Program-made: the position numbers and the translations under genes | Assembly: GCA_004564215.1 (NCBI GenBank) | Contig: CP024846.1 | Coordinates: 1,488,001 to 1,552,000, forward strand | Length of the DNA: 64,000 nt | Direction: 5' to 3' | DNA from: Beijerinckiaceae bacterium | GTDB taxonomy: Bacteria; Pseudomonadota; Alphaproteobacteria; Rhizobiales; Beijerinckiaceae | The notes under the pieces: model-generated | Told to the model about the DNA's origin: nothing | The model's database searches: none | What the model saw: only the letters and a program-made list of their open reading frames with translations | Shown: positions 57,229-61,445 of the stretch, one piece after another | Position numbering within the stretch: the first letter of the stretch is position 1 | How the letters are laid out: every line of letters begins with the position of its first letter

Positions 57229-57450
57229 CTAACCTTCGACGAGATCGAGCCGCTTTTCGATGCGCGCGACCCGCCCGTCGAGGCGATCGAGCTTGGTATT
57301 GACCTCGGCGAGCTGCACCGAATGGTCGGCGACGGAACGCTCGAGGTGGCCGAGGCGCACGATGACATCCTCTAATCTATTTTCCACACGATCGAGCTGC
57401 CCGCGCATATGACGCAAATGCTCGAGGATGAGATTGTCGGCCTCGGCCAT
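57229..57450 (-). CDS. Small coiled-coil protein between ffh and rpsP
   Basis: The 73-residue protein is one long amphipathic helix with Leu/Val heptads (ILEHLRHMRGQLDRVENRLEDV, QLAEVNTKLDRLDGRVARIEKR). Its start overlaps the last base of the ffh stop codon (TAATG), so it is translated with ffh. Such short coiled-coil frames beside ffh are common in Rhizobiales; the function is unknown. Confidence 0.75.
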   Translation of the reverse strand: MAEADNLILEHLRHMRGQLDRVENRLEDVIVRLGHLERSVADHSVQLAEVNTKLDRLDGRVARIEKRLDLVEG

Positions 57451-59033
57451 TATTTCTTCTTTCCGAAGGGATTGAGCCCGCTGAACAGGCCGCCGCCAAG
57501 GCCTGGAAGCTTCGCGCCCCCAAGACCCGGCAAGGCCGGCGCCTCGGGCTTGCCGGCCGGCGGCTTCATGCTGGGTTTGACCGCCTGTCCCGGCCCTGGC
57601 CCGATCTGGCGCTGACCCATTTGCTTTTGCATGGCGGCGATCTGCTCGGGCGTCGGTTGCGGCATGCCGCCCATGGAATTGCCGCCCGGAAGACCCAGCA
57701 TCGAGGCCATCTTGCCCATCGGGCTGCCGCGCTTGGCGCCGCCCATCGACTTCATCATGTCGGCCATCTGCCGATGCTGTTTCAAAAGCTTGTTGACGTC
57801 CTCGACGCGGGTGCCAGATCCCGCCGCGACACGCTTTTTGCGCGAAGCCTTGAGCACGTCGGGATTGCGCCGCTCCTCGCGGGTCATCGACGAGATAATA
57901 GCGCGCTGACGCTTGATGACGCGATCGTCGAGATTGGCGGACGCGAGCTGCTCCTTCATTTTGGCAACGCCCGGCATCATCCCCATGATTCCGCCAAGGC
58001 CGCCGATCTTCTCGACCTGGGAAAGCTGGTCCGACAAATCCTCGAGATCGAACTTGCCCTTGCGCATCTTGCCGGCGATGCGGCGGGCCTTTTCCGCGTC
58101 GATCGACTCGGCGGCTTTTTCCACGAGCGAAACAATGTCGCCCATGCCGAGAATGCGGTTGGCGATGCGGGAGGGATGAAAATCCTCCAGCGCGTCCATC
58201 TTTTCGCCGGTGCCGAGCAGCTTGATCGGCTTGCCGGTCACGGCGCGCATGGAGAGCGCCGCGCCGCCGCGCCCGTCGCCATCGATCCGGGTCAGCACAA
58301 TGCCGGTCAGGCCGACGCGATCATCGAAGCTTTTGGCGAGATGGACCGCGTCCTGGCCGGTCAGACTGTCGGCGACGAGCAGGATCTCATGCGGTTTCGA
58401 GGCCGCCTTGATCTCGACCATCTCCTCCATCAGCGCTTCGTCGATATGCGTGCGGCCGGCGGTGTCGAGCAAGACGACATCATAGCCTTGCAGCCGCGCG
58501 GCCTGCTCGGCGCGCTTGGCGATCTGCACCGGGGTCTGGCCGGGGATGATTGGCAAAGTATCGATTTCGACCTGGCGGCCGAGCACGGCGAGCTGTTCCT
58601 GCGCGGCCGGACGCTTGACGTCGAGCGAGGCCATCAGCACCTTGCGCTTCATCCGCTCGGACAGGCGCTTGGCGATTTTGGCCGTGGTCGTGGTCTTGCC
58701 CGCGCCTTGCAGGCCGATCATCATGATCGCAACCGGCGGCGCCGCGTCGAGATCGATATGATCGGCATCGGAGCCGAGCGTCTCGATCAGCACATCGTTG
58801 ACGATCTTGACAACCATCTGGCCGGGCGTCACCGATTTGACGACATTGGCGCCGACCGCGCGCGCGCGCACCTTGTCCACGAAGGAGCGCGCCACGTCGA
58901 GCGCGACATCGGCTTCGAGCAAAGCGCGGCGAACCTCGCGCAGCGCGAGGTTGACGTCCTCTTCCGAGAGCGCGCCACGCCGCGTGAGCTTGTCCAATAT
59001 GCCTGAGAGCTTTTCCGAAAGCCCTTCGAACAT
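57450..59033 (-). CDS. ffh: Signal recognition particle protein Ffh
   Basis: The 527-residue SRP54 GTPase targets nascent membrane proteins. The N domain is followed by the G domain (GLQGAGKTTTTAKIAKRLSE near residue 107, VLLDTAGRTHIDEALMEE, RIDGDGRGGAALSM) and the methionine-rich M domain that binds 4.5S RNA and signal peptides. A Pro/Gly-rich tail (residues about 470-527) is longer than in E. coli. The upstream region contains palindromic repeats. Confidence 0.97.
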   Translation of the reverse strand: MFEGLSEKLSGILDKLTRRGALSEEDVNLALREVRRALLEADVALDVARSFVDKVRARAVGANVVKSVTPGQMVVKIVNDVLIETLGSDADHIDLDAAPPVAIMMIGLQGAGKTTTTAKIAKRLSERMKRKVLMASLDVKRPAAQEQLAVLGRQVEIDTLPIIPGQTPVQIAKRAEQAARLQGYDVVLLDTAGRTHIDEALMEEMVEIKAASKPHEILLVADSLTGQDAVHLAKSFDDRVGLTGIVLTRIDGDGRGGAALSMRAVTGKPIKLLGTGEKMDALEDFHPSRIANRILGMGDIVSLVEKAAESIDAEKARRIAGKMRKGKFDLEDLSDQLSQVEKIGGLGGIMGMMPGVAKMKEQLASANLDDRVIKRQRAIISSMTREERRNPDVLKASRKKRVAAGSGTRVEDVNKLLKQHRQMADMMKSMGGAKRGSPMGKMASMLGLPGGNSMGGMPQPTPEQIAAMQKQMGQRQIGPGPGQAVKPSMKPPAGKPEAPALPGLGGAKLPGLGGGLFSGLNPFGKKK

Positions 59034-59081: not shown

Positions 59082-59128
59082 GGGCATGATCCCGAAAAGT
59101 TGCAGACTTTTCGGACAGGATCATGCCC
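59082..59128. repeat. GGGCATGATCC palindromic repeat
   Basis: Arms GGGCATGATCC (59082-59092) and GGATCATGCCC (59118-59128) enclose a second pairing, CCGAAAAGT and ACTTTTCGG. A related, degraded copy lies at 17393-17437, so this is a dispersed intergenic repeat. Confidence 0.75.
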
Positions 59129-59145
59129 AAAAACAAACAGATAAG

Positions 59146-59165
59146 GGCATGATCCCGATCATGCC
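59146..59165. repeat. Partial copy of the GGCATGATC palindrome
   Basis: GGCATGATC-CC-GATCATGCC forms a perfect 20-base dyad 17 bases after the full copy. It looks like the end arms of the same element without the interior. Confidence 0.6.
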
Positions 59166-59544
59166 GTGTCTTGGACCGCTCAGGGCTGTTCCGCGCGGAA
59201 AAGCCTAAGTTTAGGCTTCGCAACGCCAAACGCGCCCGGGAGCGCAACGCGCCGCCGGACGTTCACCGCTTGCCTCCCAGGACAAGGCGGAGCGCTCGAA
59301 ACCAACCCTCAAACGGAGGACAGTGCCTTTTGGCCCGCGCGGGGGCGGAAGTCAAGGAAGGGGGTGGGGAGCGGGTGGCGGCTCAGTTTTGAGTATTGGT
59401 CGTGACCCAAGCGGACTGGCTCAGAATGTTGTTCTTGAACGTTCGAAAGGGGCGGTTGACCTTTCCGCCAAATGAAGAATCAGAAATAGCTTGCATAGCG
59501 CGTTGGATTAGAACAAAATGAGAACAAAGACTCCAGGCATTAAG

Positions 59545-60942
59545 ATGTCTAACCAACGCATTCGCGACCCATTGCATGACTTGATCGAATTTTCGACCTC
59601 GGAGCTAGAACGCACCCTGTGGAAGGTTGTGCAGACTCGCCCTTTCCAGCGACTGCGCCGGGTGAAACAACTCGGCTTTTCTGATCTGATCTACCCAGGG
59701 GCTAGCCATTCGCGCTTCGCCCACAGCGTTGGCGTCTTCCACACCGCCCGCCAGCTGATGGCGGTGGTTCAACGCCACGTAGTAGACCAGGACAGCAAGG
59801 AAAGGCGAGCTCTTGCGGCCGCGCTCGTTCATGACCTCGGACATGGCCCATTCAGTCACGCATTCGAGAAAGTCGGAAGCCGGCTCGGTCTGAAACTCGC
59901 AGACCATGAGAACATGAGCGATGCCCTCATCAGGCAGAGCGAGGTTTCGGAGGTTCTCAACGAGTTGGGGAGCGGCTTCGCCAACGACGTTGCCGACATC
60001 ATACAAAAGGACGGAATTAGGACTGTACAGCACGCTGTTGTGTCGAGCCAATTCGATGCCGACCGCCTCGACTACATGCGCCGCGACCGCATGATGACAG
60101 GCACCCAACATGCGGCAATCGACTTCCGATGGTTGATCGCGAATCTTGAAATCGGATCTGTACCTGTGGGTGTAGACGATATGCCGATCGGTAAGGTCGA
60201 GACCTTCGTTCTAGGACCCAAGGCGATCTATGCGGCGGAAGCCTTTGTCCTTGGTCTCTTCCAACTCTATCCAACCGTCTATTTCCATAAGGCTACTCGC
60301 GGAGCAGAGAAGATATTCACAGAGCTTCTGGTTCGGGTGGTGACACTCGTCCTCGACGGTATGGTGACCACAACGGGACTGCCAGCAAACCACCCAATTG
60401 TGCGCTTCGCACAGCGCCCCGACGATATCGATGTCGCGCTGATGCTGGACGACGCCGTGATCTGGGGGGCGCTCACTCAGATGGCCGAAGCGACCGATCC
60501 CCTCGTTGCGGGATTCGCAGCCCGGCTCCGAGACCGCAAGCTATACAAATGCCACGATATCCGTACGCAAGTGGCACATGTACTGGATCCAAAGAGCATC
60601 AATGATGACAATGTTATCGAGAAGATCGACAAGTGCTGTGCGGGAATTAGTTCAAAATTAACCGAATGGGTCACCAGTAACGGGGAGGGGCGTCCCCGCA
60701 TATTGATCGACCACGACGAGCGCTCGCCGTATAAGCCCGTTGGCCAGTCCAAGGGGCCCCTCGATCGCATTAACATTCGCACGGACGGCGGGACGCTGGT
60801 CGATCTGAAGGAGCGCTCAAGCGTCGTGGCCGCCTTGAAGACATACAAGCTGTTCCGCGCCTATGCGGACGAGACTGATACGACGGCGCGGGATACCGTG
60901 AGGCGCATCGTGGAAGGGGAGATCGCAACATGTCGTACGTAA
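59545..60942 (+). CDS. SAMHD1-like HD-domain phosphohydrolase
   Basis: The 465-residue protein has the sequence order of dNTP triphosphohydrolases of the SAMHD1/YwfO group: IRDPLHDLIEFSTSELE, QRLRRVKQLGF, the first metal ligands in GASHSRFAHSVGVFHTARQ, the HD motif in AALVHDLGHGPFSHAFE, and SSQFDADRLDYMRRDRMM. Such enzymes hydrolyse dNTPs and some defend against phage by draining the pool. Substrate here is unproven. An ATG at 59518 is a possible earlier start. It overlaps the next gene by 13 bases. The gene sits at a break in order downstream of ffh. Confidence 0.88.
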   Translation: MSNQRIRDPLHDLIEFSTSELERTLWKVVQTRPFQRLRRVKQLGFSDLIYPGASHSRFAHSVGVFHTARQLMAVVQRHVVDQDSKERRALAAALVHDLGHGPFSHAFEKVGSRLGLKLADHENMSDALIRQSEVSEVLNELGSGFANDVADIIQKDGIRTVQHAVVSSQFDADRLDYMRRDRMMTGTQHAAIDFRWLIANLEIGSVPVGVDDMPIGKVETFVLGPKAIYAAEAFVLGLFQLYPTVYFHKATRGAEKIFTELLVRVVTLVLDGMVTTTGLPANHPIVRFAQRPDDIDVALMLDDAVIWGALTQMAEATDPLVAGFAARLRDRKLYKCHDIRTQVAHVLDPKSINDDNVIEKIDKCCAGISSKLTEWVTSNGEGRPRILIDHDERSPYKPVGQSKGPLDRINIRTDGGTLVDLKERSSVVAALKTYKLFRAYADETDTTARDTVRRIVEGEIATCRT

Positions 60943-61445
60943 ACGCCGCAAAGGCAGCTGGCATAGTCCGTGATGCGGGCGGTCGCATTGTCGGTCGCAC
61001 TCGCCTCCAAAAGGTCGCCTACCTACTGAGTGTCACCGGTCTCGAAGACGGCTTGCCCTTTGCCTACAAGCATTATGGCCCGTACAGCGAGGATCTGGCC
61101 ACGGCCGCCCGCGACGCCGGCCTACTTGGCTTGTTGAGTGAAACCGAGCAGCAGGCATCTTGGGGCGGCACGTACTCGACTTACGTTGTCGGTGAACACC
61201 CTAGCTCGTCTGTTCCCCTTGCTCGTCGCCGTCTGGCAGCGGAGGCGGCGGCGGCAGATGCGATCGAGTTGGAGCTGGTGGCCACCGTCGTGTTTCTTGC
61301 CAAGGAGGGGCACAGCGATCCGTGGATGGAAACGGCGCGCCGTAAGCCGGAAAAGACTGAGAACGGCAGGATTGAAAAAGCCCGGGACCTTTACCGAAGG
61401 CTATCCGCAATCGAGACGCCCGTCCCTTGGCCCGCCATCTTGTGA
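60930..61445 (+). CDS. YwgA-like protein, partner of the HD gene
   Basis: The 171-residue protein contains RTRLQKVAYLLSVTGLEDGLPFAYKHYGPYSEDLATAARDAG, a pattern of YwgA-type proteins and related to the SocA/Panacea antitoxin-like fold. In Bacillus subtilis ywgA lies beside ywfO, an HD hydrolase, so the pairing seen here recurs. It may control or be regulated by the HD enzyme. It starts inside the HD gene (13-base overlap). Confidence 0.75.
   Translation: MSYVNAAKAAGIVRDAGGRIVGRTRLQKVAYLLSVTGLEDGLPFAYKHYGPYSEDLATAARDAGLLGLLSETEQQASWGGTYSTYVVGEHPSSSVPLARRRLAAEAAAADAIELELVATVVFLAKEGHSDPWMETARRKPEKTENGRIEKARDLYRRLSAIETPVPWPAIL

Follow-up and report, generated by a model that had tools for sequence, protein, structure and literature searches.

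A linked pair of HD hydrolase and YwgA-like genes in a Beijerinckiaceae genome as a candidate effector–inhibitor module

Depletion of deoxynucleoside triphosphates (dNTPs) is an antiviral strategy common to animals (SAMHD1) and bacteria. How do cells keep a dNTP-depleting enzyme off? The question is raised by two genes in a 64 000-nucleotide stretch of a Beijerinckiaceae bacterium genome (GenBank CP024846.1, positions 1,488,001 to 1,552,000; the whole stretch is called the window below): an HD-domain hydrolase gene and, overlapping its end on the same strand, a gene for a small YwgA-like protein. An original prediction had proposed that the small protein restrains or targets the HD enzyme in a two-gene defence or nucleotide-control system. 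We consider it slightly better than an even chance that the pair is a two-gene effector–inhibitor module, of a type II toxin–antitoxin-like or defence-like kind, in which a dNTPase is restrained by a bound protein of the DarG C-terminal type. The basis for this reading is the linkage of the two genes, their co-divergence, signs of mobility, a catalytic site recognized by homology and a fold match of the small protein.

Linkage and co-divergence of the two genes

A four-row YwgA profile, run against 297 genomes of the same order, gave 25 matches in 22 genomes. An HD gene directly adjoins the match on the same strand in 22 of these, found in 19 genomes, and the other three matches lie in long proteins (frames of 588–693 amino acids, aa). 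The reverse search of the same genomes found 22 strong HD loci, 21 of which are directly beside a YwgA-like gene. At a contig edge in one genome (G006), the YwgA-like gene is preceded by only the last 61 codons of an HD gene; we infer that the HD sequence across this contig break is one gene, and hence that all 22 strong loci are paired. Five weak HD matches (95–133 bits), mostly in longer frames, had no adjoining YwgA match. The conserved pairs on which the original prediction depended therefore exist (22 pairs in 19 of the 297 genomes), and in relatives within the order the two genes are not separate and unlinked.

The arrangement, together with the co-divergence described below, is that of type II toxin–antitoxin genes. 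A survey of 36 pair loci, of which two are near-identical, shows both genes on one strand in every case and a spacing of ≤20 bp; 32 loci have the HD gene first and four the YwgA-like gene (start codons in this survey were chosen by script, so that overlap lengths are approximate). Distances between HD proteins and between YwgA-like proteins were correlated over 23 pairs (r = 0.94), with none of 5000 permutations as high, and also over 11 close pairs (r = 0.74), where 2 of 5000 permutations were as high. Shared host ancestry could contribute to this co-divergence, but the sporadic presence of the pair speaks against its being the only cause. In the window itself the 13-base same-strand overlap is as originally described (Table 1), and the arrangement makes translational coupling of the two genes likely. 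A second in-frame ATG of the HD gene, at 59518, would give a protein of 474 aa.

At one locus (L019:2009-3438, G074) the HD gene lies in two frames beside an open YwgA-like frame, which may reflect a pseudogene, a frameshift or an assembly error.

The HD protein and its small partner

The description of the HD protein as SAMHD1-like was borne out. It matches the Pfam families HD (2e-10) and HD_assoc_2 (4.2e-8), both above cut-off. The best solved relative in a single-sequence search was EF1143 of Enterococcus faecalis (2o6i, 3e-39), followed by 2q14, 2hek, 9mr6 and SAMHD1 structures (from 1e-18); with a 27-row HD profile, 2o6i reached 2.8e-109 and SAMHD1 4.6e-52, in nearly full-length alignments. 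The predicted metal ligands H60, H96, D97 and D173 do not vary in any of the 27 relatives aligned, whilst the C-terminal third is poorly conserved; the alignment leaves out L019, with its split HD gene, and L023, at a contig edge. H100 and H105 lie at the positions of SAMHD1 H210 and H215, judged by motif spacing. By homology the catalytic site is intact, and the protein is predicted to be a dNTPase. It scores 15.7 bits with the curated anti-phage dGTPase model NF041026, against a cut-off of 400, and is under the cut-off of every other dGTPase model listed (NCBIfam, including the Dgt equivalogs). It is thus a relative of these enzymes, not a named Dgt or anti-phage dGTPase.

Table 1. Features of the gene pair (window positions)
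Feature	Position	Strand	Details and basis
HD-domain hydrolase gene, EF1143/YwfO/SAMHD1-like	59545..60942	+	465 aa from ATG 59545; Pfam and structure-sequence matches
His60 codon, predicted metal ligand (EF1143 H66)	59722..59724	+	Alignment; EF1143 residues from the available part of PMC8177086
His96-Asp97 codons, HD motif (EF1143 H110-D111)	59830..59835	+	Alignment; PMC8177086, available part
Asp173 codon, predicted fourth metal ligand (EF1143 D183)	60061..60063	+	Alignment; PMC8177086, available part
Overlap of the two genes	60930..60942	+	13 bp; open reading frame coordinates
YwgA-like gene; its product is a free-standing relative of the toxin-binding C-terminal domain of DarG	60930..61445	+	171 aa
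GPYS motif of the YwgA-like protein	61077..61088	+	Alignment of 25 proteins

The small protein resembles the DarT-binding C-terminal domain of DarG in both sequence and fold. That domain is the top match of its predicted structure in a VIA-align listing, which is a re-examination of the top 1000 Foldseek chains and no independent search. Its score with the DarG model NF048014 is 23.3 bits against a cut-off of 250. The Gly-Pro of the GPYS motif is invariant in all 25 aligned YwgA-like proteins and is common to the DarG of 7yk3. A domain model search gave no macrodomain or NADAR hydrolase domain, and there was no nucleotidyltransferase match in Pfam, NCBIfam or PADLOC. The earlier suggestion of a SocA/Panacea-type antitoxin fold stands in part: the likeness to an antitoxin domain holds, in the form of the DarG C-terminal domain, but the Pfam match is lacking. 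We rejected membership of SocA_Panacea (PF13274, gathering threshold 25.7 bits), as Pfam gave no match for the window protein; 24 of the 25 members are unmatched even at E 0.1, with E 0.058 for the remaining one. One YwgA protein from Bacilli does, however, reach 4e-4 with a protein annotated as DUF4065.

Weak matches also turned up in larger proteins. The C-terminal part of type I restriction specificity subunits (Methylase_S; L033:163-2073, the same gene as L088, and L034:1-2070) weakly matches a YwgA/Panacea-like profile. A 588-aa TPR protein (L032:907-2673) had a weak YwgA-like stretch, a match that was gone with the later, larger profile.

Spread and genomic surroundings

Within the order the pair is sporadic. 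The host carries a second pair (G000:C1:2454639-2456510) that is ~25% identical to that of the window, and two other genomes also have two pairs each, whilst profile searches found no YwgA or HD match in the 11 family members listed. Across 398 genomes of the phylum there were 19 YwgA-profile matches in 17 genomes: the two pairs of the host, four new pairs, 11 C-terminal parts of 347–392-aa frames that we take to be DarG from their length and position, one 243-aa frame and, once more, the type I specificity-like protein. A scan of genome contigs with the single protein gave two relatives only. A metagenome-assembled genome titled Hyphomicrobiales (L003) has a pair 83% identical to that of the window in quite different surroundings, and one of Loktanella (L004) carries another pair.

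Pairs also occur on viral contigs, where an HD relative has a YwgA neighbour at 7 of 25 loci; one further YwgA-like gene has no HD gene in its stretch. Going by labels read from translations, one such pair adjoins two integrase-like frames (L047), a second lies among repressor-like and toxin–antitoxin-like frames (L046) and a third has one transposase-like and one TIR-like frame in its vicinity (L045). A protein search of plasmid and phage records found no relative of the window YwgA-like protein, and at the DNA level nothing in plasmids matched the region of the pair. HD relatives are present in 51 plasmid and 13 phage records; among 13 plasmid loci inspected (eight, L005-L012, judged by annotation and five, L040-L044, by profile), one, from Priestia, has a YwgA-like neighbour.

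Composition gives a mixed picture. The pair was originally placed in lower-GC DNA, a weak remark for the window: the pair has a GC content of 0.583 and the window as a whole 0.592, a level as low as that of the pair being reached by 34% of the 1.9-kb stretches of the window. Third-position GC is 0.667 and 0.674 in the two genes versus 0.755–0.826 in four neighbouring genes. At 19 of 19 other loci measured the GC of the pair is below that of its flanks, by 0.02 to 0.22; these loci include the second pair of the host and exclude L129 (contig edge) and G016, and some pair ends (L127, L137) were set by hand.

Next to the pair, on the opposite strand, lies ffh (57450-59033, named from its translation). 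In 11 family relatives the DNA on the far side of ffh, examined over 5 to 9.9 kb, contained no HD or YwgA match, and the other right-hand genes of the window were represented there by two weak 24% matches to one gene only; in a twelfth other genome ffh itself was not matched. A long palindrome lies upstream of ffh at 59082-59128. The genome has exactly two copies of its core, the second being at C1:1260478, and shorter GGGCATGATC-type copies are found at 59145-59166.

Several HD and YwgA relatives keep other company. On 4 of 4 such plasmids inspected (rhizobial, Roseibium), an HD protein 34.5–37.3% identical to that of the window is encoded in a four-gene operon of radical SAM protein, 3'-5' exonuclease, AAA ATPase and HD protein (L005:3631-7416, L006:267-3886, L007:3622-7413, L008:3626-7413). 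Two of the four are near annotated Shedu or CD-NTase-like genes, so that this HD clade keeps defence-like company with other partners too; the operon is a candidate nucleotide-targeting defence operon. Other HD relatives, on plasmids of Methylocystis (L010:4454-6194) and Sphingobium (L011:4456-7355), each follow a hypothetical gene, 139 codons long in the former and 136 in the latter, and may be a further pairing of a small protein with an HD protein. A distant YwgA-like gene from the archaeon Methanomethylovorans (plasmid, L183:3477-4022) lies beside a DNA polymerase gene, with no annotated HD gene adjoining.

Alternative explanations and known systems

In the proposed module, the HD protein would be a dNTP triphosphohydrolase, metal-dependent and akin to EF1143 and SAMHD1, and the stand-alone DarG-type domain would bind it and keep it inactive. 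Phage infection or another stress might disturb the complex or shift nucleotide levels; the enzyme, released or activated, would then drain dNTPs and stop phage (and host) DNA synthesis. Of the original prediction, the linked two-gene unit and the antitoxin-like partner are supported, whilst dNTPase activity, restraint and defence are still predictions, as are physical contact between the two proteins, an inhibitory and not an activating effect, the trigger and any benefit against phage.

The surroundings speak both for and against a place in defence islands or mobile elements. For it are the seven viral-contig pairs and one genome (G172) in which the pair lies ~1.7 kb from a DRT class IX reverse transcriptase, the only one in the 19 genomes at 1e-40. 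A scan of 149 neighbour proteins gave single matches to HTH_IX and HEPN_IX, presumably the partners of this reverse transcriptase from its own locus, and also included a TOTE primase. Other observations weigh against a module of this kind. Among the tyrosine integrase (PF00589) places listed for the 19 genomes, none is less than 20 kb from a chromosomal pair, several contigs being shorter than this. With PADLOC models at 1e-8, the neighbourhoods of the pairs gave 71 families (not proteins) and the controls 13, but the count is confounded: the control stretches also match PADLOC families, and the tally is inflated by the reverse-transcriptase models that make up most of the 25 families listed near pairs (149 neighbour proteins, of 156 computed, versus 149 control; neighbour genes were chosen by a longest-frame rule and some may be spurious). 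The isoelectric points of 23 YwgA-like proteins range from 4.4 to 9.4, not consistently acidic, so that DarG-style charge mimicry is not evident, and we rejected it as a general mode of inhibition. There was no YwgA match near the HD relatives of Listeria, Paenibacillus and Thermomicrobium, nor at 18 of the 25 viral-contig loci; HD relatives can thus do without YwgA. Finally, the HD family also has housekeeping-like members.

Such members suggest an alternative that is unlikely but deserves serious weight, namely that the genes are a conserved dNTP-pool control pair, as YwfO–YwgA may be, in which the small protein, as a regulatory subunit, tunes the enzyme to signals of growth or starvation and defence is secondary or absent. 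The homologous pair of Priestia megaterium (Bacilli, L041) lies among ordinary-looking genes (for a tautomerase, a site-2 protease and a protein of the YwhD family). These surroundings fit the ywfO–ywgA locus of Bacillus subtilis. In the portions of the cited papers that are available, EF1143 itself is a dGTP-activated enzyme that depletes dNTP pools (PMC8177086), a YwfO-like protein is kept in the minimal cell Syn3.0 with a proposed role in cleaning up modified nucleotides (PMC4993169), and a Dgt-type dNTPase of Caulobacter has a cell-cycle role and leaves susceptibility to phage CbK unchanged (PMC12186491). Hard to reconcile with housekeeping are the sporadic occurrence of the pair, its absence from all 11 family members listed, its GC below that of the flanks at every other locus measured, the pairs on viral contigs and the two divergent pairs in one genome.

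We consider it improbable that the small protein is instead an activator, sensor or targeting subunit that recognizes a phage product or DNA and turns the HD enzyme on: its closest relative in sequence and fold is a toxin-inhibiting domain, and the overlap and the predominant HD-first order are equally compatible with toxin–antitoxin pairs. Less probable still is a module that cleaves some other nucleotide (an alarmone, or a cyclic or modified one) and so is not a dNTP-depletion system. Substrates are diverse across the HD superfamily (PMC8177086, available part), the C-terminal third of the protein varies and a relative sits in the different, four-gene operon; against this, the best structural relatives are dNTPases aligned over nearly their full length, and all four metal ligands are retained. 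That the two genes are chance neighbours with no functional link we reject as next to impossible given the reciprocal linkage (22 of 22 strong HD and 22 of 25 YwgA matches in the order) and the co-divergence. What speaks for chance comes from outside the order, i.e. the unpaired viral-contig HD genes and the archaeal YwgA-like gene; nothing was found for it within the order.

The effector–inhibitor module that we favour has partial counterparts in several known systems. The YwfO–YwgA genes of Bacilli are homologous and, as in Priestia, adjacent on one strand with the HD gene first, but they lie among ordinary-looking genes whereas the window pair is sporadic and in foreign-looking DNA. In B. 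subtilis the pair is apparently core. EF1143 (2o6i, 3irh, 4lrl) is the closest solved relative, with four metal ligands alike, and is presented as a single enzyme in the text available. PanAT (Panacea/SocA/DUF4065) shares the conserved Gly-Pro (GPV in the available part of PMC8832971) and antitoxin roles, but nearly all YwgA-like members lack the Pfam match; in the available portions of two Panacea papers, including PMC8832971, ‘HD domain’ and ‘YwgA’ do not occur. A Staphylococcus toxin–antitoxin survey lists HD-domain proteins among putative toxins and, in the part available, has no occurrence of YwgA (PMC10244574). In the portions of the literature found, YwfO is treated only as a proposed nucleotide-cleaning enzyme, and the one mention of ywgA is an expression table that labels it a hypothetical protein; the open-licence literature yielded no description of the HD/YwgA pair, although one may exist elsewhere.

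DarTG and Clover come closest to the proposed mechanism. The small protein is homologous to the DarT-binding domain of DarG and has a like fold, but stands alone, with no macrodomain or NADAR domain found, and its partner is an HD hydrolase and not the ADP-ribosyltransferase DarT. It is possible, if rather short of an even chance, that these pairs form an undescribed, widely spread family of toxin–antitoxin-like immune systems, each with a SAMHD1-type dNTPase that a protein inhibitor of the DarG C-terminal kind keeps off directly. The stand-alone form would then mark the domain as an inhibitor fold of general use that changes partners (HD enzymes, DarT, perhaps also the TPR and type I specificity proteins described above), and DarG may have arisen from it by fusion. 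Clover (CloA/CloB) likewise consists of two genes, for an HD dNTPase and a restraining partner, and in the available part of its description the HD enzyme is toxic without that partner and protects against phage (PMC12265719). CloB, however, is a nucleotidyltransferase acting via p3diT, whereas the window partner is a small DarG-type domain. Where Clover, by that account, keeps its enzyme off with a small-molecule inhibitor, a DarG-homologous protein inhibitor would, if the module works as proposed, be a second solution, joining two immune families and suggesting a function for the ywgA of Bacilli.
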